DNA of 64,000 nucleotides from the NCBI RefSeq assembly GCF_003053565.1, contig NZ_QAXS01000006.1, positions 62,001 through 126,000 on the forward strand, written 5' to 3'. The DNA comes from Halanaerobium saccharolyticum. Its GTDB lineage: Bacteria > Bacillota > Halanaerobiia > Halanaerobiales > Halanaerobiaceae. Made by a program: the position numbers and the translations under genes. The notes below the pieces were generated by a model. It did not search any database and was not told where the DNA came from. It was given only the letters and a program-made list of their open reading frames with translations. This document shows, piece after piece, positions 5,266 through 43,527 of this stretch. Position 1 is the first letter of the stretch. Each line of letters opens with the position of its first letter.

Positions 5266-6246
5266 TTATTCTTCAAAGTCACCTGATTTATGCCACTGCC
5301 AGGCGGTAGAAATTATTTTTTCTAATTCCGGATACTCCGGCTGCCAGTTCAATTCTTTTTGAATTTTATCAGAACTAGCAATTAAAACTGCCGGATCTCC
5401 AGCTCTTCGATCGGAAATCTCAACTTCAAAATCACGTCCGGTCACTTCCTTTACTGTATCAATAACTTCTTTAACAGAATATCCTTCTCCATTACCCAGA
5501 TTATAGATTGAACTATCTTTACCATCAGCCAGCGCCTCTACTGCCAGCACATGGGCTGCTGCCAGGTCATTAACATGGATATAATCTCTAATACAGCTGC
5601 CATCTCGGGTTGGATAGTCATCTCCAAAGATATAGATTTTATCTCTAATTCCTAACGCTGTCTGCAGTACAATCGGAATTAAGTGAGTTTCCGGATCATG
5701 AGCCTCTCCAATTTCACCTTCAGGATCGGCTCCGGCTGCATTAAAATAGCGGAGAGAAACAAAATTGATTCCGTGAATATCATCATAACGCTTTAAGGCT
5801 TTTTCGAAAAAGAGCTTGCTTTCACCATAGGTATTTGTGGGCTCAGTCTGATTATCTTCCTTAATCGGTATCTGATCAGGCTCACCATAAACTGCAGCAG
5901 TCGAAGAAAAAACAATATTATTTACATCATTTTTGACCATCGCTTCTAAAAGATTAATTCCATTGGCAAAATTATTGCGATAATACTTGGCCGGGTTTTC
6001 CATTGACTCCCCAACCAGGCTGTCTGCCGCCAGATGGATTACTCCTTCAATCTTATTTTCCTGCATCACCTGTTCTAAAAGTTTCTGATCTGATAGATCT
6101 CCTTCTATAAATTTACCGCCGGTTACTGCCTCCCGGTGTCCTTTCTGTAAATTATCAAAGGTTACTACTTCGTGTCCTTCTTTTAAGAGTGCTTTTAAAA
6201 CATGACTGCCGATATAACCTGCTCCACCTGTTACTAAAATATTCAT
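5266..6246 (-). CDS. galE: UDP-glucose 4-epimerase
   Basis: 326 residues, an extended short-chain dehydrogenase. The NAD-binding glycine motif TGGAGYIGSH is at 6-15. The catalytic set is S114/S115/T116 in FSSTAAVYG with Y140 and K144 in TYGESK. It interconverts UDP-galactose and UDP-glucose, the last Leloir step. It follows the ROK gene by 30 bases and precedes galK. The start has an exact AAGGAGG site 8 bases upstream. Nothing in the sequence suggests broadened UDP-GlcNAc specificity, but that cannot be excluded by eye. Confidence 0.96.
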   Translation of the reverse strand: MNILVTGGAGYIGSHVLKALLKEGHEVVTFDNLQKGHREAVTGGKFIEGDLSDQKLLEQVMQENKIEGVIHLAADSLVGESMENPAKYYRNNFANGINLLEAMVKNDVNNIVFSSTAAVYGEPDQIPIKEDNQTEPTNTYGESKLFFEKALKRYDDIHGINFVSLRYFNAAGADPEGEIGEAHDPETHLIPIVLQTALGIRDKIYIFGDDYPTRDGSCIRDYIHVNDLAAAHVLAVEALADGKDSSIYNLGNGEGYSVKEVIDTVKEVTGRDFEVEISDRRAGDPAVLIASSDKIQKELNWQPEYPELEKIISTAWQWHKSGDFEE

Positions 6247-8379: not shown

Positions 8380-10068
8380 TTATTTAACTTTAAGTAGAAT
8401 TGTTTCAAAGGGGCTTAATTGATAATCGAGCATTTTAGCTTTTAAAGCTCGGTAATCGAATTCAGGGTAATTACTTAAAATAATTTCTTCAACCTGATAG
8501 TCTAAATTGATCTCAACCTCTTTATTTTTAAAGTTGGCAGCTAAAAGCAGCCTCTCTCCTTCTTTTTCTCTGAGATAAGCAATCAGATTTGGATCTGATT
8601 TTAAAAGCGGCTGATATTTACCATCTACAATTATTTCCTGATAGGGGCTGTTTTTTCTGAGCTTGATCAACTCTTTATAAAAGTAAAATACGGAATTATC
8701 ATCTTTTAGATTTTCTTCAACATTAATTTGCTGATAATTTGGATTCAGCTTTAACCAGGGCTCAGCTTCAGAAAAGCCAGCATTTTCAGCATCAGACCAC
8801 TGCATTGGGGTCCGACTGTTGTCCCTGCTCCTCCTCCAGACAACCTCCATCACTTCTTCTTTGTCATATCCGGCCTTTAAGGCTTCCTGATATAAACCGT
8901 GGGTTGCCAGATCCTGATAATCATCTATATTTTTAAATTTAACATTGCTCATCCCTATTTCCTGCCCCTGATAGATAAAGGGTATTCCCCGCTGCAGCAT
9001 AAAAACAGCTGCCAGCATTTTAATTGAACGCTCATTAATTTCAGTTTCATTTAAATATTTATTTAAAGAGCGGGGCTGATCGTGATTTTCCCAGAATAAA
9101 GTTGCCCTTCTCTTTCCGGCATAAGTTTTTTGAATCTCATTTAACCGCTCTTTTAGCTCAATTAGATCCCAGTCTCGAGCCTTAAACCACTCACTGCCCT
9201 CACTTAAATCCAGATCGACATGGCGGAAATCAAAGACCAGATCAAAAGGTCCAGCATCACCGGCAAATTCCTGCATCCTCTTATTATCTTCTGCATATAA
9301 TTCTGCTACAGTCACAATCTGATAGTTGGAAAAAGTCTCTGCCTTTAATTCATCTAATAAATTCAAAATTCCAGGCTGATTGGCAGAGGCTTCAAAAATA
9401 CTGCTCAGACCGTCAGGACCATTAACCTCCTGATCCTTAAATCCACTCTTTTTTATGTAGCTGATGGCATCAACTCGAAAACCGGCCAGACCCTTATCCA
9501 GCCACCAGTTTACCAGCTGATATAATTCCTGCCGCAGTTCCTTATTTTCCCAATTTAAATCTGGCTGCTCCTCGGCAAAGGTGTGAAGATAATACTGCTC
9601 GGTCTGCTGATCATAGGTCCAGGCTGAGCCGCCAAAAATTGAGCGCCAGTTTGTCGGTGGGCTGCCATCAGCCTTTGGCTCCTTCCAGATATAATAATCT
9701 CTTTTTGGATTATCCTTCGATTTTCTGGATTCTTTAAACCACCGGTGCTGGTCAGAACTGTGATTGATTACTAAATCCATCATAATTCCAATTCCTCTTT
9801 TATCAGCCTCAGCTATCAATTCTTCCATATCCTCCATTGAGCCGAACTGCTCAGCAATTGCATAATAATCATCAATATCATAGCCGTTATCCTTCATCGG
9901 GGAAGAAAAAACCGGGCTGAGCCAGATTAAATCTATTCCCAGTCGATTTAAATAATCAAGCTTTTCTATAATCCCCCGCAAATCACCAATTCCATCATTA
10001 TTGCTGTCATTAAAACTTTTAGGGTAAATCTGATAAATTACTGAATCATGCCACCATTTTTCTGTCAT
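8380..10068 (-). CDS. Alpha-glucosidase, glycoside hydrolase family 13
   Basis: 562 residues. All four GH13 regions are visible: DLVINHSSDQH; GFRVDAISYIKK with the nucleophile Asp; TVAELYAED with the acid/base Glu; and FWENHDQPRS. The N-terminus WWHDSVIYQIYPKSF is typical of the oligo-1,6-glucosidase/maltase subgroup (GH13_31-like). The residue after the nucleophile is Ala, as in alpha-1,4-specific maltases, where alpha-1,6 enzymes usually have Val; this points to maltose- or sucrose-type substrates, as an inference. No signal peptide. Start moved to the ATG at 10068 because the earlier ATG at 10077 lies inside the AAAGGATG binding site. Last gene of the melA operon, 37 bases after the MFS gene. 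Confidence 0.9.
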   Translation of the reverse strand: MTEKWWHDSVIYQIYPKSFNDSNNDGIGDLRGIIEKLDYLNRLGIDLIWLSPVFSSPMKDNGYDIDDYYAIAEQFGSMEDMEELIAEADKRGIGIMMDLVINHSSDQHRWFKESRKSKDNPKRDYYIWKEPKADGSPPTNWRSIFGGSAWTYDQQTEQYYLHTFAEEQPDLNWENKELRQELYQLVNWWLDKGLAGFRVDAISYIKKSGFKDQEVNGPDGLSSIFEASANQPGILNLLDELKAETFSNYQIVTVAELYAEDNKRMQEFAGDAGPFDLVFDFRHVDLDLSEGSEWFKARDWDLIELKERLNEIQKTYAGKRRATLFWENHDQPRSLNKYLNETEINERSIKMLAAVFMLQRGIPFIYQGQEIGMSNVKFKNIDDYQDLATHGLYQEALKAGYDKEEVMEVVWRRSRDNSRTPMQWSDAENAGFSEAEPWLKLNPNYQQINVEENLKDDNSVFYFYKELIKLRKNSPYQEIIVDGKYQPLLKSDPNLIAYLREKEGERLLLAANFKNKEVEINLDYQVEEIILSNYPEFDYRALKAKMLDYQLSPFETILLKVK

Positions 10069-21831: not shown

Positions 21832-24333
21832 TTAAAGCTGAAACTGTTTTCGGAGGAGATAAAATTCGATGCCGTGGCTTTCAATCTCACCCCTAAGCTT
21901 ATATTCTCCTGTCAGATTGAGATATTCAATTCTCAAATCAGGAAAAGATTTATTCTTTAAATATTTTATTTCATGATTATTTAGATCAGATGGCCCCCCC
22001 ATCTTCAGCCACTGGTCAAAGGCAGAACCTGAATCTCTATTTAATTTATACTGACTCAGCTTATAGCTTCCTTCCAGGCCGGTCAATTTAAGACTGAAAT
22101 CCAGTTTCTCCTTATTTTCAAAAACCTGGTACCTGTTATATTTATCAATAATACTGTAATCTGCATTCTGATAGCTTCTGCTCAAATAAGCATAATTATA
22201 AATCAAAATCTGCAGATCATTTCCTCTGGCAGTAATTATATAGTTATCACCCTGTTCAATAATCTCATCTCCCAGCTCTGTTAAGATTATATAGGCATAA
22301 TAACCGGATTTTTTAATTCCTTCTGTATTCATCAAACCTCTGCCCCCAAAAAAAGGAGCTTCATTAATCGGCCATTCCGAAATTAGATCTGATAAATTCA
22401 AATAGCCCAGACCATCTAAACTCTGCTGCAGTTTTAAAGCGTTATCAATAATAAAATCAGCCATAAAGGCAGTATCATGGACCAGTTCCTTAGCATTCCA
22501 GCTGACATTCCAGCGGGTTGCAATCAATTCCGCCTCCGGGAAATATCTAGCAAGCAGTTTTCTAATTCTTTTGGCTATTTTTATAGAATAATCTTTTTCT
22601 TTAAATTTAAATTTAATATTTTCCAGAGTACTTTCTTTATAAAACTGGCTTAAATCAAGCTCCTCCTCAATCATCGGAACCGAATTGTGATAGAGATTAA
22701 TATTATAAAAGTCTACTGCAGTGTCATTCTGCTCAGCATATTCCATGAATTTTTGAGAAAGAAAATTTTCTTCAAAAAACGTTTCCGAAGCAGGACCGAC
22801 TTTAAGAGATTGAGAAATCCCCTTTATTTTTTCGGCAGTTTTAGTATAAAACTCAAAATACTCTGTTTCTGTCCCTGCCCAGTGAAAGCCCCGGGCTGGA
22901 AACTCTGTCCAGACCTGAAAATACCAGCTTTTAACCTCTTCGATCCCATATCTATTAATCAGATGGACTATAAAAGCATTAATTAAATCAAGCCAGGCTT
23001 CAATTTTTTTAGGAGGAGAAAAATTTGCCTGGTAATAAAAAATTGTTTTATCCTTATCACTTGCCAGTAATTCAGGCATAAAACTTAAAGTAATAAATGG
23101 CTTCAAATCATTTTCTAAAACAAAATCCATTATATTGTCCACCAGTTTCCAGTTATAATGAATATTATCCAGGCTGTCTCCCTTACAGACTTCCAGATCA
23201 TCATTAAAAATCCCCTCAAATCGCAGATACTCAAAGTTGATTTCCTGCTGCAGCTCTTTTATCTGCTGGCGGAGATTTGAATCCAGAATGCTCTGGGCAG
23301 TACCTGCATTGATTAACTTCTGCCAGACAGGATTTAGCTCCGCAGCTCTCTTATTTCGAGTTAAGTCTATTTCTTTTTTGAGAAGATTACTTTTCCGTTT
23401 ATTCTGCTGCAGATATGAGATTGTAAAGTCATTTAAAAACTCATTTATTTGGTTGAGCTCAGCAAACTCTTCCTGCAGATGCTGATCTTTTAATTGAGGA
23501 TAGTTGTCTTTAAGTTCTACAGGACTTAAATTGAAATGATCGTTAAAAACACGATAAAAACTTTTTATATTTTTAAAACCAGATTCCAGAGCTATCTGAT
23601 TGATATTTTTGTTTGAATATAAAAGCTCATAAACTATTTTCTCCAGCCGCAGCCGGTCAAGATAGCTTTTAAAGTTTATTGCAGTTTTCTTTTTGAATTT
23701 CTCTGAAATATAGGAGCTATTATAATGTAATTCTTCAGCAATATCTTTAAGTCTTAAATTATTCATATAATCAGCTTCAAGTTTATCAATTACTTTAATT
23801 ATAATATCTTCCCTCTGCTGCTGATAAAAGTCATCCTGGCGCTGATTATTAATACAGAAATAATTATTTAAAAAATTAAGCAGCTGATTTAAATTAACTT
23901 CTATCTCCTCTGCCAGCTGATAATCTTCATTAAGGTAATTAAAACTTAAACGAGCCAGCAAATATTTAAGCTGATCGAGATTACCATTATTTAGCTGATA
24001 TATTTTAGCACTGAAATTTTCGTCGTGTTCTTTTAAAAACTGATTTTTAAAATCAAAAACTAAAAACCTATTTTCAGCCTGAATGGAAGCATTATTAATC
24101 AATTGAAAAGGAGTATAGCTGTTAATTAAATAAAGATCCCCCTTATTTAAATTAATTTCATTTTTTTGTTCGGTCTTCTGCTCAGCAAAATTATTCTTAA
24201 CTTTTAAGTTAAGTTCCCCTTTAAGAACCCAAATTATTTTGAAAGATCGATTAAAAACAAAATCTGAGCTTAGTGAATTACAGGAAATATTTAGGGGCAG
24301 TCCGTAACTAAAATTGACAGTTTCACAAATCAT
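21832..24333 (-). CDS. AraC-family regulator fused to a degenerate GH39-like domain
   Basis: 833 residues from the ATG at 24333, chosen because GAGGAG lies 7 bases upstream; a TTG at 24348 would overlap it. Residues 1-165 form a cupin-like sensor; 175-280 hold two helix-turn-helix motifs (LRLKDIAEELHYNSSYISEKF, INQIALESGFKNIKSFYRVF); about 330-700 resembles the GH39 TIM barrel. The acid/base segment reads WTEF (E477), not the usual W-N-E-P. The nucleophile segment reads ATRWNVSW with R607 where GH39 has Glu. The domain therefore looks like a catalytically dead sugar sensor. It lies upstream of, and parallel to, the glucuronide operon and probably controls it. Confidence 0.8.
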   Translation of the reverse strand: MICETVNFSYGLPLNISCNSLSSDFVFNRSFKIIWVLKGELNLKVKNNFAEQKTEQKNEINLNKGDLYLINSYTPFQLINNASIQAENRFLVFDFKNQFLKEHDENFSAKIYQLNNGNLDQLKYLLARLSFNYLNEDYQLAEEIEVNLNQLLNFLNNYFCINNQRQDDFYQQQREDIIIKVIDKLEADYMNNLRLKDIAEELHYNSSYISEKFKKKTAINFKSYLDRLRLEKIVYELLYSNKNINQIALESGFKNIKSFYRVFNDHFNLSPVELKDNYPQLKDQHLQEEFAELNQINEFLNDFTISYLQQNKRKSNLLKKEIDLTRNKRAAELNPVWQKLINAGTAQSILDSNLRQQIKELQQEINFEYLRFEGIFNDDLEVCKGDSLDNIHYNWKLVDNIMDFVLENDLKPFITLSFMPELLASDKDKTIFYYQANFSPPKKIEAWLDLINAFIVHLINRYGIEEVKSWYFQVWTEFPARGFHWAGTETEYFEFYTKTAEKIKGISQSLKVGPASETFFEENFLSQKFMEYAEQNDTAVDFYNINLYHNSVPMIEEELDLSQFYKESTLENIKFKFKEKDYSIKIAKRIRKLLARYFPEAELIATRWNVSWNAKELVHDTAFMADFIIDNALKLQQSLDGLGYLNLSDLISEWPINEAPFFGGRGLMNTEGIKKSGYYAYIILTELGDEIIEQGDNYIITARGNDLQILIYNYAYLSRSYQNADYSIIDKYNRYQVFENKEKLDFSLKLTGLEGSYKLSQYKLNRDSGSAFDQWLKMGGPSDLNNHEIKYLKNKSFPDLRIEYLNLTGEYKLRGEIESHGIEFYLLRKQFQL

Positions 24334-24441
24334 ATAAAGTCTCCTCAAATTTAATAATTGATTAAATTACTCAATTGAGCAATAAAGATGAATGTTGTGT
24401 ATCTAAAGTTATTATATCATCTCAAATTAAAAATGAAAAAG

Positions 24442-24810: not shown

Positions 24811-26625
24811 ATGAAAGGTACAGTCGTTTCGACCTGGCTCAGTACTCTCAGCAAGACCTATGGAGAGGAAAAAGTCAATAAAGCCAAAAGGAAAGCCGGC
24901 TTTAAAGAAGATTTAATCATTACACCAATGACTACAATTGAAGATCAAAAAACTAAAGATTTAATGAAATACATCGGCCAGGATGTAGGTAAAGAGCCTG
25001 GTGAGATCTGGCATGAAATGGGAATGAAAAATATTGAAACTTTTTCCAAATGGTTTCCTTCCTATTTCAGTAATCGGACTCTGAAAAACTTTTTGATGTT
25101 GATGGATACCGTTCATCTGCAGCTGACAGAGATCCTGCCTGGTGCTAACCCTCCTCGGCTGCAGGCAGAAGAATTAAATGATCATAAAATTGAAATGACA
25201 TATAAGTCTAAAAGAGGAATGTATGATTACTTTCTGGGACTTTTGGAAGGGAGCTCTTCATTTTTTAAAACCCCAATTGAGGTAGAAGAGATTGATCGGG
25301 GCACCCTGGAAGATGGACGGGCATTTTTGAAAATTCATATTGGCTTTGAAAACTCATTCAGAAATAAAAAGAAATACATATTATCTAAGATTCTGGGACT
25401 GGGGATTTTTAAAAGCATCCCGGCAAAAATGGGACTTAGCAGTTTTGTTTTGAGTTTTGCCTTAATCTCTTTACCACAGTTTACAGCTGGCTGGCCAGTA
25501 AATTTAGGGGCAGCAGCGGGAATAGGAGTTGTTTTAGCTTTAATCAGCAGAATTTTAGTCTCTCCTATTAAAGCAATTGATGATGAATTAAGTAAGATTG
25601 AAGCCCTAAATCTTGATGATGAAAATAGACTTAAAACCGCTGATGATTTTGAAAATTTATTTGAAAAACTGCGCCAGATAAAGGCTAAGCTAAGAGAAGA
25701 TATTCTTTTCTTAAAGGGTGGAACTGATGATATGCATAACTTCACCGAAGATTTTGTAGAGCTGGCTGAAGATATGGAAGATGTATCTGACAGTATTTCA
25801 ACTGTGGTTGATGAGGTTGCTCAGGGAGCTCAGGCTCAGGCCCAGGAAACCGAAGAGTCAGCCTATATTGTTAATCAAAATGTTGAAGAAATTGAAAAGC
25901 TGGCTGCAGCGGGTCAGGATAGCCGTGATAACCTGGAAAATGCTGTAGAAAATATTCGAACTTCTACCCAGGAAGTAGTTGATGTTAATCAAAGAATTAG
26001 TGGAGTACGTTCAGCTTTTGCAGGTGTTAACCAGCTGGGGCAGCAGCTTTCGGAAAAAATTGAAACAATCATGGAAATTGTTGATACTGTTGAAGATATT
26101 GCAGGCCAGACCAATCTGCTTTCACTTAATGCTTCAATTGAAGCAGCTCGCTCTTCTGATAATGGCCGCGGCTTTACAGTAGTGGCAGAAGAAGTAAGAG
26201 AGCTGGCAGAGGAATCGCAGCAGGCTGTTGAAATAATCAGAAAGAATCTGGGCGAATTTACCGAACACGTTGAAACTCTCAGTGAAAGTATTAGTGAACA
26301 GTTCAGCAATCTTGAAGCCAGCAATCAAGCCTTAGAAGAAGTTGCTGAATCAAGCAACAGTGCTACCAATGATATTGAAGCTGCTACTGATCAGGTTGTT
26401 GATATCGTCAGCAGTTTAAATGAGGAAACCAAAAAGATTAGAGAGGTTATTGAAAACTTTAATAATCTGGCTGCAATTGCGCAGGAAAATTCAGCTTCCA
26501 GTGAAGAAATGAGTGCCAGTGTTAATAGTTATTCTGAAAAAATTAAAGAAATGACAGGTTATATTGAACAGATGGAAGATCTTACAGAAAACTTCCGCAG
26601 TAACCTTAAGGATTACAATGTTTAA
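24811..26625 (+). CDS. H-NOX-domain methyl-accepting chemotaxis protein (TarH-like)
   Basis: 604 residues. Residues 1-185 are an H-NOX heme domain: proximal ligand H102 ([17 protein letters not shown]), P115, and the propionate-binding Y131-x-S133-x-R135. The distal residues W9, N74 and Y140, which hold bound O2 in the Caldanaerobacter TarH domain, are all present at the same numbers. Two membrane segments (209-224, 230-249) lead to a HAMP-like stretch and a cytoplasmic signalling hairpin with its tip near 425-465 ([15 protein letters not shown]). The heme domain precedes the membrane segments, so it is cytoplasmic. It should signal oxygen, or NO, to CheA. No other che genes are near. The ATG follows GGAGGG. 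Confidence 0.95.
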
Positions 26626-26659: not shown

Positions 26660-26714
26660 AAAACCGCTCTTAAGACCGGAATTTTTGGATTCTGATCTTA
26701 AAGAGCGGTTTTTT
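26660..26714. terminator. Bidirectional terminator after the chemoreceptor
   Basis: AACCGCTCTTAAGA pairs with TCTTAAAGAGCGGTT with a one-base bulge, followed by TTTT on the plus strand. It overlaps the stop of the opposing gene at 26713 and may serve both. Confidence 0.8.
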
Positions 26715-27171
26715 ATTCTTCCAGATTATCTTTAATTACCTGTTCCCAGGCATGCATATTATCTAAGAGCCAGGCGGCTGAATCTTTTTCTCCCAGATGA
26801 TTATTAAATTCTACTTTTAATAATTCACTATTTTTTCTTTTTCCCAAAAACGAATTAACCCTCTCAATATTTTTAATATTATCTAAGGGGATAACCAGAT
26901 TTTTTTTAGGAAGCCACCTTAAAAAATGTAGCTCATCTGGTGTTAAAAGTAAGGAGCCATTCCCTCTAACCTGGGCCCTGCCAGCTGACTTCTGACCAAA
27001 AAAATTAACTTCCTTACTAAAAAAAATAATTCTGTCTTTATGGTAATTTGTAAATAGTTCTTCTGCCCTTTTTCTTTTAATAGATGCAATTATTTTGTGC
27101 ACTATATAATACAGGACAGCTAAGAGAACAGGGATTAGCAAAATAAATGTTTTCTGATTGAAAAACTGCAT
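26713..27171 (-). CDS. Membrane-anchored protein of unknown function, PH-like fold possible
   Basis: 152 residues. One N-terminal membrane segment (8-30) is followed by a basic stretch and about 110 soluble residues. The segment SLLLTPDELHFLRWLPKKNLVIPLDNIKNIERVNSFLGKR has the alternating pattern of bacterial PH/GRAM-like domains (a beta strand, then 'IPLDNIKNIE'). I do not recognise the family with certainty. It starts after GGGAGG and is followed by nothing on its strand. No role can be given. Confidence 0.6.
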   Translation of the reverse strand: MQFFNQKTFILLIPVLLAVLYYIVHKIIASIKRKRAEELFTNYHKDRIIFFSKEVNFFGQKSAGRAQVRGNGSLLLTPDELHFLRWLPKKNLVIPLDNIKNIERVNSFLGKRKNSELLKVEFNNHLGEKDSAAWLLDNMHAWEQVIKDNLEE

Positions 27172-27240
27172 AATTAACCTCCCTAAAGAGCTGATATTAA
27201 ATTAAATAAAAACATTTTTCTATAAATCAAGACAATAAAA

Positions 27241-28029
27241 TTAAAGCTCTCTGCTAACAGTGTTTTCTAAACTTCCAATTCCTTCAATTTCAATTGTTAT
27301 TTGGTCTCCGTCTCTTAAAAAAATCTTCTCTTCTCTCGCAAATCCAACTCCCTCCGGAGTACCTGTCAGAATAACTGTCCCCGGCAGCAGAGTCATATTA
27401 TGTGATAAATAACTGATCAGCTGTTCTACCTTAAAAATCATATCTGAGGTTTTCGACTCCTGCATAGTTTTTCCATTTAAAATTGATCTAATCTTTAAGT
27501 TGTTGGAATCCAGGTCAGTTTCAATCCAGGGTCCAAGCGGACAAAATGTATCAAACGATTTTCCCCGAGCCCACTGCTTATCCAGTTTTTTCTGACAGTC
27601 ACGAGCGCTGACATCATTAGCACAGCTGTAACCAAGTACATAATCTTCAACCTCAACAGTTTCAAGATTTTTGGCTTTTTTTGAAATTATAACTGCCAGT
27701 TCTGCTTCAAAATCAACCTCTTCTGGAGCCAGTTTTGGTAAAATAATATCTGCAGCTGGATCAGTAATACTGCTAGTTGCCTTTAGAAAAACCACCGGAC
27801 GCTCTGGAATTTCAGCCCCGGTTTCAACTGCATGCTGCCTGTAATTTAAACCAATTGCTATTATATTTGGCGGCTGAACTGGAGCCAGAAGTTTAAGCTG
27901 ATCAAGCTCTGCAACCTTTTTGCCTTGAGAAAACTCTGAAAAAACATCTCCTTCAAGCTCAAATACTGTCTCACCTTTTAAGATCCCTCTTTTAATTTCA
28001 TCATCTTTTTGATATCTAATAATTTTCAT
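27241..28029 (-). CDS. Fumarylacetoacetate hydrolase family protein
   Basis: 262 residues with the FAH fold: IAIGLNYRQHAVE, the metal-binding E-x-E in DFEAELAV, and the later Asp in CANDVSARD. The conserved LLPGTVILTGTPEGVGFARE lies near the C-terminus. Such enzymes cleave or hydrate acyl-pyruvates and 2-keto-diacids, or decarboxylate oxaloacetate; the substrate here is unknown. It is 28 bases downstream of the inositol-phosphatase-like gene, so co-transcription is likely. The ATG is preceded by AGGTGAG. Confidence 0.9.
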   Translation of the reverse strand: MKIIRYQKDDEIKRGILKGETVFELEGDVFSEFSQGKKVAELDQLKLLAPVQPPNIIAIGLNYRQHAVETGAEIPERPVVFLKATSSITDPAADIILPKLAPEEVDFEAELAVIISKKAKNLETVEVEDYVLGYSCANDVSARDCQKKLDKQWARGKSFDTFCPLGPWIETDLDSNNLKIRSILNGKTMQESKTSDMIFKVEQLISYLSHNMTLLPGTVILTGTPEGVGFAREEKIFLRDGDQITIEIEGIGSLENTVSREL

Positions 28030-28057
28030 TTGCTGCTCACCTACTCAATTCTATAGT

Positions 28058-28840
28058 TTATAGATAAATTTCTTCGATAATCCCTCTCAATTCTGCGACT
28101 AATTCTTTACTACCTGCAATCAAAAGCGGGGCGCCCTCAATTTCAGACTTATAAACTTCTCCTCCCGCCTCTCTGACCAACAATTCTCCTGCTGCAAAAT
28201 CCCATTCTTTAAGTTTGAATTCCCAGTAGGCATCAATTCGACCACTGGCCACCGAAATAAGATCAAAAGCAGCACTTCCGGAACGCCTGAGCCCTCTAAT
28301 ATTTTTTAAAATTTTATTTAGGGGCTCCAGATTATCAATTTTAGATTCCTTTTTATCATAGGGAAAACCGGTAGCAACAAGCGAATTATTTAAAGCAGTT
28401 TTATGAGAAATTTTAATTGCTGTCCCCGACTTATAGGCTCCCTTACCTTTAATTGCGGAATACACCTCATCAAGTTCTGGAATATAAATAACGCCCAGCA
28501 CAACTTCATTTTCATATTTTAAGGCAATAGAAACACAATAAATAGGATAGGAACTGGCATAATTATTGGTTCCATCCAGAGGATCAATCACCCAGGTATA
28601 TTTGCTTTTTTTATCTGCAAAATCACTTTCCTCACCCATGATATTATGTTCTGGATAGCTTTTTTCAATCTTGGCTCTGATCATATCTTCACTCAACAAA
28701 TCAATTTCTGTAACTAGATCAGTGAGTGTACTTTTAGTCTCAACCTTGAAGCTTTCTTTTTTTAACTTTTCCTTCTGCATCTTACCCACATTTATAGCCC
28801 ATTCCTTTGCGAGTACTGCTGCGTCTGCTAAATTTATCAA
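28058..28840 (-). CDS. Inositol monophosphatase family protein
   Basis: 260 residues. The Mg2+/Li+-binding motifs are GEESDF, WVIDPLDGTNNY and EWDFAAGELLVREAGG. Family members hydrolyse inositol-1-phosphate, fructose-1,6-bisphosphate, histidinol phosphate or PAP; this one cannot be assigned further. The start is a TTG at 28840 with GGAGG about 12 bases upstream. The N-terminal helix (LADAAVLAKEWAINVG) belongs to the family, so a start at the later Met is unlikely. It precedes the FAH-family gene. Confidence 0.88.
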   Translation of the reverse strand: MINLADAAVLAKEWAINVGKMQKEKLKKESFKVETKSTLTDLVTEIDLLSEDMIRAKIEKSYPEHNIMGEESDFADKKSKYTWVIDPLDGTNNYASSYPIYCVSIALKYENEVVLGVIYIPELDEVYSAIKGKGAYKSGTAIKISHKTALNNSLVATGFPYDKKESKIDNLEPLNKILKNIRGLRRSGSAAFDLISVASGRIDAYWEFKLKEWDFAAGELLVREAGGEVYKSEIEGAPLLIAGSKELVAELRGIIEEIYL

Positions 28841-28903
28841 ATTAAAAATACACCTCCAGGATTAGTCTTTATTCAACTTAATTCTATCAAAAACTTTCTC
28901 TGA

Positions 28904-29350
28904 TTACAATTTTAAAAGCATCTCATAATGAGGAATATCATCTTCCAAATATCTATCAGAAACAACTTCAAAGCCCAGACTCTTATAAAAGTCAAGAATG
29001 TACTCCTGAGCAGAGATCCTAACCACTTCTGTATCCATATTATTTTGAATAAAAGAAATTGCCTGCTGCATCTGCTTTAATCCCAGCCCCTGTCTTCTAA
29101 ATTCTTTTTTTACAAGCACTCGCCCAATTGAGACTTCCGGATAGGATAGGCCCGAAGGAATAATCCGCAAATAAGCGGCAATTTGATCCTGTTCCTGATA
29201 AAATAAATGAAAAGAATCCTGATCTTTATTGTCACACTCATGGTAGGGGCAATCCTGCTCAACGACAAAGACATTAATCCTGGCTTCAATTATTTTATAT
29301 AATTCCTGGTTTGTCAGTTCTTCAAATTTTTTTATATATAGCTCCATCAT
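28904..29350 (-). CDS. ElaA-like GNAT acetyltransferase
   Basis: 148 residues. INVFVVEQDCPYHECDNKD is the ElaA-group signature, and IGRVLVKKEFRRQGLGLKQM is the acetyl-CoA binding motif A of GNAT enzymes. The substrate of ElaA proteins is unknown. The gene begins ATGATG after AAAGGAG; the second ATG (29347) has the better spacing and may be the true start. It lies 33 bases before the GGDEF/EAL gene ends, reading the same way as its neighbours. Confidence 0.88.
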   Translation of the reverse strand: MMELYIKKFEELTNQELYKIIEARINVFVVEQDCPYHECDNKDQDSFHLFYQEQDQIAAYLRIIPSGLSYPEVSIGRVLVKKEFRRQGLGLKQMQQAISFIQNNMDTEVVRISAQEYILDFYKSLGFEVVSDRYLEDDIPHYEMLLKL

Positions 29351-29383
29351 CTACTCCTTTGACAATTAATAATCTGATTTCAA

Positions 29384-31510
29384 TTATTTACTGAAGTTTT
29401 TTTCTACAACTGCAGCTTTTTCTGCTCTGGAAAAATAATAGCCCTGATAATAATTACAGCTGTTTTCTCGTAAAAATTCTAATTCTTCCTCTGTCTCTAC
29501 TCCTTCAGCCACAACTTCCAGGCCCAAATTTCTGCCCATCATAATTATCGTTTTTACAATATTTAAGTTACTGCGGTTGTGGACAAATGACTTATCAATT
29601 TTTAGTTTGTCGAGGGCAAAGCGATTTAAATATTCAAGTGATGAATAACCGGTTCCAAAATCATCAATTGAAATTTTGACTCCCAGCTGCTTCAGCTTTC
29701 TTAAAACTTCTACAGTATATTCAATATCTTTAATTACTGTTCTTTCGGTTATCTCTAACTCTAAAAATTCTGCTTCCAGCTGATGTTTATTCAGCAGCTT
29801 TTCTATTTTTTGAACAAAATCATCCTGCTGAAACTGCTGGGGTGCAATATTTACTGACATGACTAGGTTTTGATAGCCTTTATTCTGCCAGCTTTTTAAC
29901 TGCTGCAGGGCTTCATTTAAAATCCAGTCACCCAGTCTTAAAATCATCCCTGTTTCTTCGGCCAGCGGAATAAACTCTGCCGGTGAAATTCTTCCCTCTT
30001 TGGGGTGCTGCCAGCGGATCAGAGCTTCTACTCCAATAACCCTATCAGTCTTAGTTTCCAGCTGGGGTTGATAAAAAAGCTGAAACTCATTATTGACCAG
30101 TGCTTTCCTCAACTTCCCCTCTAAATTTAAGCGGCCTGAAAGCTGGCCCAGCATCTTCTGGTTAAAAAATTTGATATTATTTTTTTCATCAACAAAATGA
30201 AGAGCAAGCCTTGACTTTCGAATCAGATCAGAACAGCTTTCTTCTTCCTGGTTAACCGCTATCCCAATTTTTATTTTTAAATAAACAAGATTATTGTTGA
30301 CCTCATAGGGTTCTGAAAGTTTAGTAATAATCTCTTCTGCATATTTTTGGATCTCCGCTTTATTTTTTGCTGAAGCAAAATAGAAAATAAACTCATCACT
30401 TTTCCGGGCAATTGTCATCTCTTCAGATAAGCTTTTGCTCAGCCGCTGATAAAGTTCCTGCAGAATTTCATTACCTTTTTGATAACCATAATTACTGTTA
30501 ACTAAAGTTAAATTATCTGTAATTAGGGTAAATAAATAAACATCACTGGCACTGTCTTTATTTTTCTTTAGAGTTTCCGAAAGATTGCTTTCTAAAAAGT
30601 TCAGATTGGGCAGACCGGTCAGGGGATCATTGTAAGTTAACTTTTTTATTCTACTCAGCATCTGATTAAAGCCGGAAGCAAGACTGCCAAACTCATCTTC
30701 ACTTTTTATATCAAGTTTAAAACTCAGCTGCCCGTTTTCTACTCTTTTAAAAGCTGAGACGATCTGCTGGATATTCTGGTTTATGTATTCTGAAATATCG
30801 AAAATAATTAAAAATATAATTAGAATAATTATAGCAAAAGTAATTAAAAGTAAATAAAATGTATCATCACGAATATTTTTAATTTTTGAAAGAATCCGCA
30901 GAACGATGCTGTAATAACTGCTCTGATAACCTCCAGATCCTACAAACATATCTGTGCCCTCAATCTGCTGCAGGTATCCATATTTTGTTTCAATCATTCC
31001 ATTGCTGGGATTAGTGTAGGGATAACTTAATCTACCGCTGCCATTATTTTCAATAAGGGAAATCATTTCTTTTAACAGGGCTCTATCCCTAACCTGAAGG
31101 TCAATTCTATTTTTCCCTTCAAAGGCAGGCGTCGGAGGCAGAGAAATTGTATTACCATCCAGGTCATAAATATAAAAATAAAGATCATCAATAGCTATAT
31201 CATCATTTAACTGGGCCATCATATTCCTCAACTCAGCTTCAGTTACAGTTTCTCCCTGCGCCTCTTTTTTCTGGAGCCGCATCTGATAGACTTCAGATAA
31301 AATTTCTGCTCTACTTTTAACCAGAGCTTCGTATTTATCAAACTTTCTTTCCAGTAATTCTGATTCCATTAAAGTCTGGTTTTCATCAGAAAGATAATCA
31401 AACTGATAAATAACAATTGCCAGCAGAATAATCATCGTCAGAATAAAGCTGAGTCCAATTCCCAGTAAAATTTTATTTTTGATAGATAAATTTTTAAGTA
31501 TTCTCATCAT
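29384..31510 (-). CDS. Cache-HAMP-GGDEF-EAL protein, probable c-di-GMP phosphodiesterase
   Basis: 708 residues. Two membrane segments (about 13-36 and 216-238) enclose an extracytoplasmic Cache-like sensor; a HAMP region (240-290), a GGDEF domain (295-450) and an EAL domain (460-705) follow. The GGDEF site reads RKSDEF (369-374), so both glycines are lost and cyclase activity is unlikely. The EAL motifs are intact: E495-A-L, ITERT, IDDFGTGYSSLEYL, KIDKSFV and VAEGVE. The protein should therefore degrade c-di-GMP under control of an external ligand. It begins ATGATG after AGGAG; the second ATG (31507) is better spaced. Confidence 0.92.
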   Translation of the reverse strand: MMRILKNLSIKNKILLGIGLSFILTMIILLAIVIYQFDYLSDENQTLMESELLERKFDKYEALVKSRAEILSEVYQMRLQKKEAQGETVTEAELRNMMAQLNDDIAIDDLYFYIYDLDGNTISLPPTPAFEGKNRIDLQVRDRALLKEMISLIENNGSGRLSYPYTNPSNGMIETKYGYLQQIEGTDMFVGSGGYQSSYYSIVLRILSKIKNIRDDTFYLLLITFAIIILIIFLIIFDISEYINQNIQQIVSAFKRVENGQLSFKLDIKSEDEFGSLASGFNQMLSRIKKLTYNDPLTGLPNLNFLESNLSETLKKNKDSASDVYLFTLITDNLTLVNSNYGYQKGNEILQELYQRLSKSLSEEMTIARKSDEFIFYFASAKNKAEIQKYAEEIITKLSEPYEVNNNLVYLKIKIGIAVNQEEESCSDLIRKSRLALHFVDEKNNIKFFNQKMLGQLSGRLNLEGKLRKALVNNEFQLFYQPQLETKTDRVIGVEALIRWQHPKEGRISPAEFIPLAEETGMILRLGDWILNEALQQLKSWQNKGYQNLVMSVNIAPQQFQQDDFVQKIEKLLNKHQLEAEFLELEITERTVIKDIEYTVEVLRKLKQLGVKISIDDFGTGYSSLEYLNRFALDKLKIDKSFVHNRSNLNIVKTIIMMGRNLGLEVVAEGVETEEELEFLRENSCNYYQGYYFSRAEKAAVVEKNFSK

Positions 31511-31680: not shown

Positions 31681-31965
31681 TTAATCTTTATTTTGATTTG
31701 AATTTTCCTGTTTCTTTTCTTTTACTGCTTTTGACATTGTTTTTTTGAGAGTTTTCATCATATCTTCTTCACTATCAACACCCATTACTATAATGTCAGG
31801 ACTGCCGCCGAAATAGTGATTAAATACCTCAAAGACTAAAATCCCGGTTAAAAGAGCAGCCAGAGCCAACTCCAAACCAAACTCAGTGTAAACAAGAGCA
31901 AAAGCTAGTGCAGATATAAAACCGATAACATATGACAGTTGATTTCTATGCTGGGTAATAAACAT
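31681..31965 (-). CDS. Small membrane protein of unknown function, possible ATT start upstream
   Basis: 94 residues from the first ATG. One long or two short membrane segments (about 10-45) are followed by a charged cytoplasmic tail (EEDMMKTLKKTMSKAVKEKKQE). I do not recognise the family. The ATG at 31965 has no ribosome binding site. In the same frame, 14 codons earlier, an ATT at 32007 lies 7 bases after AAAGGAG and would add MIKKKLAVLKDLLS, a plausible amphipathic start. No ATG, GTG or TTG exists in between, so translation may start at ATT. It is monocistronic with its own terminator. Confidence 0.6.
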   Translation of the reverse strand: MFITQHRNQLSYVIGFISALAFALVYTEFGLELALAALLTGILVFEVFNHYFGGSPDIIVMGVDSEEDMMKTLKKTMSKAVKEKKQENSNQNKD

Positions 31966-32072
31966 TGAGAGAAGGTCTTTTAGAACAGCTAATTTTTTCT
32001 TGATAATACCACTTCTCCTTTATATTAATTTCTTAAGATTACCTACATAATATCAGTCCTGTTAATGAATGT

Positions 32073-32103
32073 CAAAAGCTCAGTCTATGCTGTAAACTGA
32101 GCT
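32073..32103 (-). terminator. Terminator of the FLGPIH-family gene
   Basis: On the minus strand AGCTCAGT pairs with ACTGAGCT around an 11-base loop, followed by TTTTG. Confidence 0.65.
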
Positions 32104-32137
32104 CTTAAGTTATCTTAAATATGATTTACTGTCATTA

Positions 32138-32788
32138 TTATTTAACAAAAAAGATATCATTATAATAGTCACTTTCTATTTCTCTTTTGTGAGCAAGCTC
32201 AGGATTAAGATTTTCAGTAAAAACCTGCAGCCACTCAGCATAAAGCTGATGCATTAACTCCAGCTCAACCTCTGTCTGCTGCCAGAATTCCTGGTGCAGA
32301 CGGCTCTGATGTTTCCAGATTATCTTTCCATCTTCTTTTACTGCACCGGAAAGACGATCACAGGGCATTCTTTCCACAAAATGCTCATTTATTATTTCAA
32401 AAGCATCATTTAAATTAAACTCATCTACATCATCTCTTACTTTAGCTTTTTCGGCCAGTTCTTCTGCCTGCTCAGCATAAATGGATAATAATAACTCCTG
32501 ATCATTAAACTCATCCATTAATGCAGCAACTACTGCTGCTTCTCTACTCTGAGCACTGCTGATTGCTGCCTCAAGCCAGGGGTGAATATCACTACCGGCA
32601 ATTAATTCTACCAGCGGCTTATCCTCTTTTAACTCACCGTACTGATGGCGGTAAGGAAAAATTAAGTCATCTACTTTTTCTGCTGAATATTTCTGGCTGA
32701 ACTGATCAACAATCTCAGCCTCTCTTTCTTCAACAATCTGAATCTGATTATATAACCACATATGGATTGGACCTAAAAATGCACTCAT
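32138..32788 (-). CDS. Conserved protein of unknown function (FLGPIH family)
   Basis: 216 residues, soluble and predicted all-helical, rich in Glu, His and Gln. It starts MSAFLGPIHMWLYNQI, an opening I recall from uncharacterised clostridial proteins, and has a conserved-looking segment MPCDRLSG...IWKHQSRLHQEFW. Regularly spaced His and Glu residues would suit metal or heme binding in a helical bundle, but no known motif proves it. The ATG at 32788 follows AAAGGAG by 8 bases; a TTG two codons earlier is less likely. It is monocistronic. Confidence 0.7.
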   Translation of the reverse strand: MSAFLGPIHMWLYNQIQIVEEREAEIVDQFSQKYSAEKVDDLIFPYRHQYGELKEDKPLVELIAGSDIHPWLEAAISSAQSREAAVVAALMDEFNDQELLLSIYAEQAEELAEKAKVRDDVDEFNLNDAFEIINEHFVERMPCDRLSGAVKEDGKIIWKHQSRLHQEFWQQTEVELELMHQLYAEWLQVFTENLNPELAHKREIESDYYNDIFFVK

Positions 32789-32959
32789 TATCAAAACTCC
32801 TTTTTTATATACTTGATTATTCTTCTCAAGTTATTATAGCATTTTTGTAAGGGGCTTTATATGATTTGCATCACACTAGCATCCAATCACCACGTTTTAA
32901 ATAACCATTTTAATTCTAAAAAGAGATTTTCAGCCGCTGGCAAAATTAATTTTTCTCAG

Positions 32960-33832
32960 TTATCGAATAGTGATTCTATGAGTGCATTCAAATTCTTGAC
33001 CTGCTTTTAATTTTCTGATCCCTTCTTTTTCCTCTATTTTACCACTGCTGTCTACTGAATCAGCAATTCCCTGCCAGGGCTCAATACAGATAAATGGTGC
33101 CTCTGCTGACTGGGACCAGACTCCAAGGTAGGGAAAATCTTTAAATTCTACTTCTACTTCTCTGTCTGATTTTCTACTTTTTAAAGTTATTTTTTCTGAT
33201 TTTAAATTTTTAAATACTAAGGCATCATCTCTAAAGGTGTCAGGCTTAAGTTCTAAAATCTTAGAGTCAGTTAAAACTTTTTCAGTCTGGTGATTAAGCA
33301 GTCCAGATTCTAATAGATATTTATCCGCATTTTCTTTCTTCTCAAATTCTAAATAATAATCTTCCTTGCTTTCTCCCTCAGTCAGCGGCCAGTAAAATGC
33401 AGGGTGGGCTCCAACTGAAAAGTAAATTTCCTGATGATCCTGGTTAACCACTCTGTAAGAAATAGCAAGAGAATTACCTTTAATAGTATATTTAATTTCC
33501 AGTCTAAATCTGAAAGGATATTTTTCTAAAGTATCCTCGCTCTCCTCAACTGCATAAGTTAAGTGATTCCTGCTCTGCTCGACCAGCTCAAACTCCTTAT
33601 CCCTGGCAAAACCATGCTGAGTCATCTTATATTTTTGACCATCATAAAAATAGCGGTCATCTTTTAGACGGCCAACAATCGGAAATAAGACGGGAGCTCT
33701 TCTACCCCAGTAATCAGAATTTCCATGCCAGAGGTAGTTTTTATTATCCTTTTTTAAAATTAACTTCTGCAGCTGGGCTCCATCAGTATCAACTTCAATT
33801 TTTATTTCGTTATTTTCCAGTTTTGAAATCAT
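32960..33832 (-). CDS. Aldose 1-epimerase family protein (LacX-like)
   Basis: 290 residues from the ATG at 33832, which follows AGGAGGAG; the longer frame from 33853 starts upstream of that site. The fold is a galactose mutarotase-like beta sandwich: ISKLENNEIKIEVDTDGAQL, WHGNSDYWGRRAPVLFPIVG, the His in FSVGAHPAFYWPL, and WSQSAEAPFICIEPWQG. It interconverts anomers of a free or phosphorylated sugar. It is divergent from the cellobiose phosphorylase gene, but the substrate is not evident. Confidence 0.88.
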   Translation of the reverse strand: MISKLENNEIKIEVDTDGAQLQKLILKKDNKNYLWHGNSDYWGRRAPVLFPIVGRLKDDRYFYDGQKYKMTQHGFARDKEFELVEQSRNHLTYAVEESEDTLEKYPFRFRLEIKYTIKGNSLAISYRVVNQDHQEIYFSVGAHPAFYWPLTEGESKEDYYLEFEKKENADKYLLESGLLNHQTEKVLTDSKILELKPDTFRDDALVFKNLKSEKITLKSRKSDREVEVEFKDFPYLGVWSQSAEAPFICIEPWQGIADSVDSSGKIEEKEGIRKLKAGQEFECTHRITIR

Positions 33833-34025
33833 AAATAATCTCCTCCTGGTCATTTTTTTATATTTCTCAAATTATTAATCTCTATGTTTAGATTATATAA
33901 TAGATAAATTAATTTTAAAAGATATTACAGTTAATTTAAAACAGTATTTTTAGGCCCCGGAACTTAATTTATTCGTTAAAAAAAGAAGGATTTTTCTGCT
34001 TTAGCAAGAATATTATAAATAATGC

Positions 34026-39759: not shown

Positions 39760-42700
39760 TTACTTAAAAATTGGAGAAGTGAATTCTAAAAAATCTCCTA
39801 TTTTTATACTTCCATCTTCATTTCGGGTCAATGGTAATTCAATTTCTAAGCTTTCAAAATTCGCCTCAGAAATTTCTACATCATTAACATTAGTAGAATT
39901 TTCTCCATTATAGAAGAAGTTATGATTAGAAGCTTCTGCTTCAGGATAGCTATCAGCTTCAATCTCTTTGGTGGCAAAGGAAACGAATTCTTCAATTACA
40001 AAGTCCTCTTCGATGCCATCATAAGTTGTAAAGACAATATTTCCACCCTGGTTATTAAAGGAAATATTATTTACAGCTCTTACTCCCGGGTTACTGTTGC
40101 TGGCAAAACCTACAGCTCCATTACCAAAAGCAATACTGTTTTTAATTAGATGAGGAACATGTACTCCTTCTCCACCAAGTTTAAACCCATTTTTATCTCC
40201 ACTTCCTTCAGTTCCATCTGTTAAGGTACCATTATTATAAGCAACAGAATCTTCAATTACGACTTTTCCAATTGCTCCAGTACCAACTTTTGTATATAAA
40301 TCCCAGCCGTCATCAATATTATTATGGGCAATACAGCCTTTAAATACATTTCCCTCACCGGAGGTTAACTTAGCTGCAAAACCATCGGCATTATTGTTGG
40401 ATGGATCAACATTATCAAAGGCGGTTGAATTTAAGATCAGGTTATGAGATGGCCATTTATTCTTATCATCTTCGGTAATATCGGTTCTGCTGATCTGGAG
40501 GCCAGTATTACCATTATTATAGAATCTACTTTCTTCTATAATATTATGATTTCCACCGATTACCATACCCTTTTCATTGGCTGCAGAATTGGTAACATCA
40601 ATTCCCTTGATATGCCAGTAATCTCCACTGAGAATAATTCCTTCAGTCTTCTTATCAAAGTCAATTACCACTTCTGCATCCTCTGCTGCAATTAAATACT
40701 TATAATTATCTGGAGTACCATCATTATACTCTTTGATTTCTAATTTTTGATCTCTCAGATAATGGCCGGCAAGCATTACTATTTTCTGTCCCGGCTGTGA
40801 ATAAGCAGCTGCTGTATCCAGATCAAGTGGATTTTCCTGACTACCATCTCCAGCGGCACTTCCTTCTGGAGCAACATAAATATCTTTACCGGCCCTGAAG
40901 GTCTTCATCTCAATAGTAAAGTTTTCAATAATCCGGTCATAATCAGTCAGTTTTTGAGTATCATCAGGTAAGAAGATTAAAGTAAAGTCATTTTGAGCAT
41001 TTGCTTTCAGCTCTGAATTTAATTTAAACTCTTTTCCTGCCTCTACTTTCTGATCAACTGCAATTATTTCTTTACCCTGTTTTACAGTTAATGTTCCAGC
41101 TACATTTGCTTCAGTGATTAACTGGTAATCTTTAACAGCGGTTTCAGTTAAAGATAAGAGATTGATTTCAGGTTCTACCGGTTCAGCAGGTGGTATAACC
41201 TGAGGTGCATCAGTTTCTGCATTAGACACCTTTAAATCAATATTACTAACTTCTATATGACCTATTCTGGCTCCAAAGAAACCAAGATAGATCTTATCAT
41301 TTTGAACTTCTAATAATTCTGGCTCAAATAAAATTTCTTCCTTTTCGCCATTTAAGCGGCCTACATAACCACTATTTGTTTTTGCCAGAGTTAAGCGATA
41401 TTCCTCGGCTGGATGTGTATTATCAGGAGTTGGCTTAAGCTCTTCAATCATAATCCCCTGATCCCCATTACTTCCTTTTCCGTCTGGAGATTCTACTCCT
41501 GTTCTGTAGAAAAGCTGAGTTCCATTTGGATCTTTACTACCACCACTATAGCCACCTACTCCAGCTATGTTGGAAGCAAATACACCGGTGTCACCATCTT
41601 CACCAATTGCATCACGAGCCATAATTCCAAAAGCTTCCTGACCGTCATGAGGATCTTTGGCATATTCAATTACCTTCACATCTGCTGAAAGCTCAAAGTT
41701 ATCTTCAGCATCAAGTACTGTGTAGTAATAGGCGATTCCATCGTGATCAGTTGCAACTTTTCCTCCACCATTAATTGAGGCAACTTCTACTGAATCTTCT
41801 TTGACATTAATAAAAGTATCATCATCAGAAGCAGACTGACCAAAGTTAATTGCATTCCAGCTGTAGTCTTTTGCTTCTCTGACAGTCACATCAAAGGTAA
41901 TAGAGTCTACTTGATCAGATTCAGGAATTACTCTAACTGTATAAATCCCCGGCTGCTGATTATCAATTTTTGAGGCATTGATTCTATATTCATCTGCGTC
42001 TAGAATTTCCTGATCTCCATTGTCATAAACCCTGGCGATCTTAATTCCTTCTTCAGCAAAATTCTCAGCAAGACCAATAGTTGTTTGAGGATATTCAACA
42101 ATTTTTAGACCTTCAAGTTCTTTTTCTTTAACTCGGTAATCCATTTCAGTTTTTTGATCTTTATATTCGATTACTAACTTTTTATTTCCAGCTGTCTCAC
42201 TATCAAAACCTGAGACCTGGTACTGATCTCGCATTAATCTGATAGAATTACCATCAGCATAATTTGCATAAACAGAAAGACCGTCTAATTTTAACTCTTC
42301 ACCAGGAAAATATAGAGTTTTTGCTGGCTTATTTTTAATTTCCAGTTCTGCGAGAGCTGCATCACTGACCTCAACTGTAAAATCAGTTTTGATCTCTGAA
42401 TTTTCATTATAGATTACAGAAATTTTCTTTTCTCCTGCAGCTTCAACTGTATAATCAGCTGCTGCAAGTGTTTCTCTTCTGTAGCCGTCATTATACTCTG
42501 CTATTACTGTAAGACCTTCAGGATCAAAATTATCTCCTAAATAATAGTCTGTTTTAGCAGGATAATATTTAATCTCTAAAGCTGTAGCACTTAACTCATT
42601 GATATTTAGCTTAAGTTCTTTTTCAGCTCCACCATAATGAATTGTAATTGTATTTTCACCGGCCTCAGAGCTGTCAAAGCCAGTTACTATATAATCTTCC

Positions 42701-43527
42701 TGGCTCAACTTTTTACTGCTGCCGTCTGCAAATTCTGCAGTAACTTTTAGTCCCTCAAGCTCAAAATCTTCTTCTAATAAATAGTCTGTTTTAAAATCTG
42801 AAGTATCAGTTTTCAGTTCCGAAACTTCTTTAATCTCTTCAAAGTTCAAATCATTGTAATAAACAGTGGTATTTCTGGAAGTATATAAACCGGCGAATAG
42901 ATCTTCTCCTTCAAAACCATTAAAATCTTCTATTACTACCGGTTCTTCCTCACCAAATTTAAGCCAGTATGTATTTCCTGATTTTTTCAGCTCAACCTGA
43001 TAGCTGAGTTCAGGCGCAGGAACTGCACCATTTACCAATTCTCCCAGCTTTTTTTGACCTTCTGCAGTTCTATAAAAAGCTGTAGTTGGAGTATCTTTAG
43101 TTGCATTTAAGGGTCCAACTGCCAGTGCATACCCGATATCCTCTTTATTATTTTCATTATATAGAACTTTATCTCTAAGCATTATTCCAAAAGAAACCTG
43201 ATTGTTCATATCAAAAGATTCCACTTCAGCCTGAACAGTCATTTTAAAATTGTCTCCCTGCTTCATCTTTTTAAAGTAATAGGCTATTCCTTCAGATGAA
43301 CTTTCAATTTTACCCCGATTATTGGCACTCATCATTTTAATCCTGCCGTCTGCAAGTTCCTGAATGGCAAAGTTTTCAGCAGTAATTTTATTGTCCCCAC
43401 CAACATTACCAAATACACTTGCTTCCCAGTCACTTTCTACTTCTATCATTTCGGCGGCCAGTACGGGTGTAATCAAAAATGTAATTAATAAAGTTAAGAT
43501 AATACTAAAAGTAATTTTAGAATTCAT
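39760..43527 (-). CDS. Secreted multidomain pectate lyase-like protein (PL9 beta-helix)
   Basis: 1255 residues. A Sec signal peptide (1-25, ending TPVLAAE) is followed by two LamG/DUF1080-like beta domains (about 30-230 and 560-770), four bacterial Ig-like repeats between them (about 232-560), and a right-handed beta-helix (about 880-1230). The helix begins KDIYVAPEGSAAGDGSQENP and holds NNADGFAAKL (D1048, K1053) and NIDDGWDLYTK, the PL9 site in which a lysine is the base and aspartates hold Ca2+. It should cleave pectate or rhamnogalacturonan outside the cell. The beta domains are probable carbohydrate-binding or spacer modules. No S-layer anchor is visible. It is monocistronic. Confidence 0.87.
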   Translation of the reverse strand: MNSKITFSIILTLLITFLITPVLAAEMIEVESDWEASVFGNVGGDNKITAENFAIQELADGRIKMMSANNRGKIESSSEGIAYYFKKMKQGDNFKMTVQAEVESFDMNNQVSFGIMLRDKVLYNENNKEDIGYALAVGPLNATKDTPTTAFYRTAEGQKKLGELVNGAVPAPELSYQVELKKSGNTYWLKFGEEEPVVIEDFNGFEGEDLFAGLYTSRNTTVYYNDLNFEEIKEVSELKTDTSDFKTDYLLEEDFELEGLKVTAEFADGSSKKLSQEDYIVTGFDSSEAGENTITIHYGGAEKELKLNINELSATALEIKYYPAKTDYYLGDNFDPEGLTVIAEYNDGYRRETLAAADYTVEAAGEKKISVIYNENSEIKTDFTVEVSDAALAELEIKNKPAKTLYFPGEELKLDGLSVYANYADGNSIRLMRDQYQVSGFDSETAGNKKLVIEYKDQKTEMDYRVKEKELEGLKIVEYPQTTIGLAENFAEEGIKIARVYDNGDQEILDADEYRINASKIDNQQPGIYTVRVIPESDQVDSITFDVTVREAKDYSWNAINFGQSASDDDTFINVKEDSVEVASINGGGKVATDHDGIAYYYTVLDAEDNFELSADVKVIEYAKDPHDGQEAFGIMARDAIGEDGDTGVFASNIAGVGGYSGGSKDPNGTQLFYRTGVESPDGKGSNGDQGIMIEELKPTPDNTHPAEEYRLTLAKTNSGYVGRLNGEKEEILFEPELLEVQNDKIYLGFFGARIGHIEVSNIDLKVSNAETDAPQVIPPAEPVEPEINLLSLTETAVKDYQLITEANVAGTLTVKQGKEIIAVDQKVEAGKEFKLNSELKANAQNDFTLIFLPDDTQKLTDYDRIIENFTIEMKTFRAGKDIYVAPEGSAAGDGSQENPLDLDTAAAYSQPGQKIVMLAGHYLRDQKLEIKEYNDGTPDNYKYLIAAEDAEVVIDFDKKTEGIILSGDYWHIKGIDVTNSAANEKGMVIGGNHNIIEESRFYNNGNTGLQISRTDITEDDKNKWPSHNLILNSTAFDNVDPSNNNADGFAAKLTSGEGNVFKGCIAHNNIDDGWDLYTKVGTGAIGKVVIEDSVAYNNGTLTDGTEGSGDKNGFKLGGEGVHVPHLIKNSIAFGNGAVGFASNSNPGVRAVNNISFNNQGGNIVFTTYDGIEEDFVIEEFVSFATKEIEADSYPEAEASNHNFFYNGENSTNVNDVEISEANFESLEIELPLTRNEDGSIKIGDFLEFTSPIFK

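Follow-up and report, generated by a model that had tools for sequence, protein, structure and literature searches.

An H-NOX chemoreceptor with an O2-type pocket in Halanaerobium saccharolyticum and the empty site of heme synthesis genes near it

The DNA considered here (the window) is a stretch of 64,000 nucleotides from a draft assembly of Halanaerobium saccharolyticum. On its forward strand, an open reading frame with an ATG start encodes a 604-residue H-NOX chemoreceptor; the assembly contains this one H-NOX gene only. The gene and its parts are as follows.

24811-26625, forward strand: H-NOX methyl-accepting chemotaxis protein (MCP), 604 residues (open reading frame and translation; PF07700 and PF00015)
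24811-25365, forward strand: H-NOX heme domain, residues 1-185, with W9, N74, H102, P115, Y131/S133/R135 and Y140 (phmmer to 1u4h; residue table; AlphaFold2 model and PDB match)
25429-25560, forward strand: hydrophobic hairpin, residues 207-250 approximately (read by eye from the sequence, without a topology program)
26032-26475, forward strand: MCP signalling domain, residues 408-555, including the CheA/CheW-binding hairpin tip (PF00015, E 6.7e-29)

The Pfam family HNOB (PF07700) spans residues 2-159 of the protein (E 1.7e-44, 152 bits against a cut-off of 25.5), and MCPsignal (PF00015) spans the signalling domain listed above. Considering that the HNOB match is above the curated cut-off and that H102 and the YxSxR motif are present, the protein is a member of the H-NOX family. 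The hairpin is read as two membrane helices, which would leave both the H-NOX and the signalling domain in the cytoplasm. An AlphaFold2 model of residues 1-185 (pLDDT 92) matches 1u55, the O2 complex, with Z 28.4 and an rmsd of 1.4 A over 184 residues. The nearest receptors in named genomes all belong to Halanaerobium: the identity is 96% for a Halanaerobium sp. 5-U2 bin, 91% for H. kushneri, and 89% for H. congolense, among others.

The best PDB match of the receptor is the Tt/Ct H-NOX 1u4h (phmmer, E 1.5e-58, residues 1-182 against 1-181). This is the crystallised O2-binding domain of Caldanaerobacter (Thermoanaerobacter) tengcongensis TarH, also designated Tt (Ct, Cs) H-NOX (PDB 1u55, 1u4h, 1xbn); the domain order is common to both proteins, and the identity over residues 1-182 is about 51%. 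The sole gap in the alignment falls after residue 165 or so; therefore, the numbering is identical up to there. At the Tt positions 5, 9, 74, 78, 102, 115, 131, 133, 135, 140 and 144, the receptor has V, W, N, F, H, P, Y, S, R, Y and L, respectively, and position 5 (V in the receptor, I in Tt) is the only difference among the pocket positions compared. The initial annotation had placed the ligand H102, P115, YxSxR, W9, N74 and Y140 at the TarH numbers, and the gap-free alignment bears this out; F78 and L144 are shared at equal numbers as well. We believe that the fold and the pocket are not a matter of chance because the residue identities, the in-register alignment and the model match to 1u55 all point the same way. 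The hosts differ: Tt H-NOX comes from a thermophile, and the receptor from a mesophilic halophile.

How usual such a pocket is can be judged from the H-NOX proteins of the order plus 398 genomes of the phylum. The set W9/N74/Y140 is complete in 38/38 readable MCP-fused H-NOX proteins of the phylum and in 0/10 stand-alone ones. The stand-alone NO-specific proteins (those of Shewanella and Vibrio, and the stand-alone forms of the phylum) share the fold with the receptor and usually also the proximal heme motif; however, the phylum members that were compared lack Y140, W9, N74 and the MCP fusion, all of which the receptor has. We consider the assignment of the receptor to the O2-binding, MCP-fused class (distal Tyr140 with W9 and N74, in register with Tt) well supported by pocket, architecture and conservation, and this part of the first reading stands. 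Its surprise value does not: an O2-type pocket in an anaerobe is to be expected because the reviews already describe exactly such a class, with O2-binding membrane-bound MCP-fused H-NOX carrying the distal Tyr in obligate anaerobes, as opposed to the NO-specific H-NOX of facultative species (PMC8738867, PMC9814294). The receptor is a further example of the described class, now from a salt-loving anaerobe; our literature search found no paper joining Halanaerobium with H-NOX. The Clostridium botulinum H-NOX, also an O2-binding type from an obligate anaerobe, is said in the 2015 work of Wu et al., which PMC8738867 cites, to have a less stable oxyferrous form.

It could be argued that the receptor answers NO (or CO) in the cell and not O2, considering that Ct H-NOX binds all three gases and that its O2 sensing in the living cell is presumed but undemonstrated (PMC9814294). 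We find this rather improbable. The distribution of Y140/W9/N74 between the MCP-fused and the stand-alone homologues indicates selection for O2 stabilisation, and the MCP-fused class is assigned to O2 in PMC8738867.

Two side observations were made in the same sample. One genome of the order (G023, locus L016) has, besides an O2-type receptor, a second, stand-alone H-NOX without W9/N74/Y140, and two types of gas sensor may coexist there. At two other loci (L060 and L061, of G249 and G102), the H-NOX-MCP genes are broken across two reading frames, which reflects either sequencing errors or decaying copies.

The genome with the receptor also encodes a CheA of 661 residues with five domains (Hpt-P2-dimer-HATPase-CheW), two CheW, CheC, CheD, a further CheW-domain protein, and two flagellin genes. 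A cytoplasmic H-NOX combined with a membrane hairpin and an MCP hairpin, in a genome with Che genes, should therefore be able to feed a working chemotaxis system. The presence of the Che and flagellin genes makes O2-avoidance signalling by the receptor plausible.

Beyond the receptor, the reverse strand of the window carries the following.

26713-31510, reverse strand: genes from the receptor to the ahb site, i.e., a 152-residue protein, three enzyme-like genes and a Cache-HAMP-GGDEF-EAL protein (gene order comparison; PF00563/PF00990 for 29384-31510)
31681-31965, reverse strand: 94-residue protein that borders the ahbAB site on the outside (cluster c6, present in six loci)
32055-32134, reverse strand: position of ahbA-ahbB in G016/G017, where the window has about 78 bp of unrelated sequence (blastn against L069, with breakpoints at 9092/10177)
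32138-32794, reverse strand: 218-residue protein of unknown family, kept in the window; in G016/G017 it separates the two ahb pairs (sequence clusters)
32875-32962, reverse strand: position of ahbC-ahbD in G016/G017, where the window has about 86 bp of unrelated sequence (blastn against L069, with breakpoints at 6148/8332)
32960-33853, reverse strand: aldose 1-epimerase-like gene that borders the ahbCD site on the outside (PF01263; flank conserved in L069, L070 and L074)

The alternative, siroheme-dependent heme pathway AhbA/B/C/D adjoins the receptor in other Halanaerobium genomes and is absent from the genome of our receptor. In two of those genomes (G016 and G017) the gene order is aldose epimerase, ahbC, ahbD, an unknown gene for 236/237 residues, ahbA, ahbB, the 94-residue gene, and then genes towards the receptor. 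The window has the aldose epimerase, the unknown gene, the 94-residue gene and the same following genes; it is precisely the ahbCD and ahbAB pairs that are missing, with the flanking genes kept and with clean breakpoints. The DNA similarity picks up again right after ahbD and right after ahbB, the flanks being 77-80% identical (blastn). A tblastn search of the window with the four Ahb proteins for remnants of these genes returned chance matches only (best E 0.056). The genes at 26713-31510 are syntenic with those of G016, G017 and H. kushneri (G012), and mostly with those of G014. H. kushneri is collinear with the window, and the ahb site there is assembled and empty too.

The 218-residue protein at this site has no match in Pfam or NCBIfam, and among the loci compared it is found only between the ahb pairs (G016/G017) or at the empty site (the window and H. 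kushneri). The 708-residue Cache-HAMP-GGDEF-EAL protein (29384-31510, reverse strand) is conserved near the receptor in the syntenic Halanaerobium loci; it is possibly a second signalling partner, or simply a neighbour. Two further genes of the reverse strand deserve mention in their own right. The gene at 21832-24348 encodes an 838-residue AraC-type regulator (HTH_18) fused to a glycoside hydrolase family 39 domain, and adjoins genes for MFS sugar transport, GH2 and GH3. The product of the gene at 39760-43527 (1255 residues) combines four Big_3 repeats with a weak pectate-lyase-like beta helix and is probably a surface carbohydrate-active protein.

In the relatives, ahbC, ahbD, ahbA and ahbB lie 0.2 to 12 kb from the H-NOX gene in five genomes (G010, i.e., H. 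congolense, G014, G016, G017 and G022), the ahbCD and ahbAB pairs of G016 and G017 being 5-12 kb away; in G018, the ahb genes are on a different contig from the receptor. The receptor of H. congolense is flanked by ahb genes on one side and by hemA, a precorrin-2 dehydrogenase gene and cbiM on the other. AhbA and AhbB of G016 are above their curated cut-offs. The two radical-SAM enzymes of the same genome reach 470 bits for AhbC and 316 bits for AhbD, and their best fits are the NCBIfam models NirJ1, with 553 bits, and NirJ2, with 491 bits; all these scores are under the curated cut-offs. In G009, G023, G024 and G026, four genomes of the order that are more distant, ahb is grouped with homologues of hemA, B, C, D and L, apart from the receptor; the hem assignments were made in G024 and extended to the other three by sequence cluster. 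Outside the class, ahbC-ahbA-ahbB are found about 4 kb from the receptor in G064. The neighbour link between ahb and the receptor rests mainly on Halanaerobium and G064, since the co-occurrence of H-NOX and AhbA across the phylum is weak (18/40 versus 103/358, P 0.045 with relatedness ignored). Within the genus, the association of Ahb with H-NOX is suggestive only (Fisher P 0.08, the genomes being related).

H-NOX works with heme b. The initial annotation left out that the genome of the receptor has no recognisable terminal heme-synthesis enzyme, and the heme loading of the receptor in its native cell is thus in question. Ferrochelatase has no match in this genome, the same search being positive in 8 of 14 control genomes. 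The model for AhbA, which also covers AhbB, gave no match at E<=1e-3, and 13 of the 38 genomes of the order exceed its curated cut-off. The best match to the model of AhbD, the heme b synthase, has 76.5 bits and belongs to the radical-SAM background; in members of the order with the enzyme, the score is 306-343 bits. The genome is a draft of 94 contigs, 98.7% complete according to the completeness tool, in which a distant heme gene could be missed.

A cell that makes its heme by an unrecognised or unassembled pathway, the loss of ahb being of no consequence for the receptor, is the main rival to our interpretation. The draft state of the assembly and the continuing strong purifying selection on the heme pocket agree with it. 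The same can be said of the 38 phylum genomes with an MCP-fused H-NOX: AhbA is over the cut-off in 17 of them, and 21 have neither AhbA at that level nor ferrochelatase, so that either scavenging is common or a route has been missed. Nevertheless, the ahb site is assembled and empty both in the window and in H. kushneri, three independent terminal-step models yield nothing convincing, and a single-contig genome of the order (G031, one of the 21) combines the receptor with a lack of both AhbA and ferrochelatase. We therefore regard self-made heme as unlikely, although it deserves more weight than the gas argument above. The counts suggest that more than half of the O2-type H-NOX receptors sampled from the phylum are found in genomes without recognised terminal heme synthesis. 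Heme borrowing may be common in this receptor class, or an unrecognised route may exist; the data do not separate the two.

The receptor tree groups our genome (G000) with H. kushneri (G012) and G019 (support 81/94), and all three are without ahb. The more distant G014 and G018 have ahb next to the same 94-residue gene. A single loss of ahb is the simplest reading, on a tree of one gene with several forks open. In this clade, the dN/dS of the H-NOX domain is 0.087 for G000-G019, 0.029 for G000-G012 and 0.023 for G019-G012, the latter two values being rough due to saturated synonymous sites (dS ranges from 0.35 to about 2 across the pairs). The pocket positions compared are intact in all three species. 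Relaxed selection on the H-NOX domain of the clade was not significant in two comparisons (P 0.08 and 0.54). Relative to the rest of the protein, the domain is slightly more changed between G000 and G019 than in the ahb-bearing pairs, a difference which is not significant and would fit mild relaxation.

One could then suppose that the sensor is decaying: apo in nature for want of heme synthesis, it would be a constitutive chemoreceptor heading to loss. The slightly raised change in G000/G019 agrees with this, as do four Halanaerobium genomes (G011, G013, G015 and G020) that lack both ahb and the receptor and so demonstrate that the receptor can be lost too. Considering that the heme-contact positions compared are all intact in three ahb-less species and that dN/dS remains at 0.023-0.087 over such distances, we hold decay to be very improbable. 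Most likely, the receptor is still in use and obtains its heme from outside.

Heme-free redox sensing by cysteines, of the type found in the V. cholerae H-NOX, was also considered and is rejected in its described form: neither the 604 residues of the receptor nor its eight nearest homologues contain a single cysteine.

We presume the following mechanism. The receptor would be a heme chemoreceptor of the O2-type H-NOX class, cytoplasmic but anchored to the membrane. Ferrous heme, bound via H102, would take up O2, which would be held by the hydrogen-bond network of Y140, W9 and N74. The membrane hairpin would relay the resulting change in the H-NOX fold to the MCP hairpin, and the activity of CheA would be altered; the most likely outcome is that the cell moves away from oxygen. 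The neighbouring ahb genes, which lead from siroheme to heme, appear to have been lost from this genome and from the two relatives of the same clade, and the receptor most likely functions only with heme of external origin. Taken jointly, an O2-type chemoreceptor, the loss of ahb nearby and heme of external origin are in our opinion the best explanation of the locus, and a fairly probable one. To the stronger statement that an O2 receptor has outlived its own cofactor pathway, i.e., that the lineage deleted ahb, selection keeps the pocket, and sensing depends on the heme of other organisms, we would give an even chance. A search of the literature for links of H-NOX with heme uptake or siroheme found none.

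The new part of this report is the apparent loss of heme genes near the receptor; the receptor class itself is already known. The receptor extends this class of O2 sensors to a salt-loving anaerobe whose genus is often met in the brines of oil fields. A natural comparison is at hand in close relatives, some of which have the ahb genes and some of which do not. If the receptor does need borrowed heme, these anaerobes rely on neighbouring organisms to avoid oxygen.
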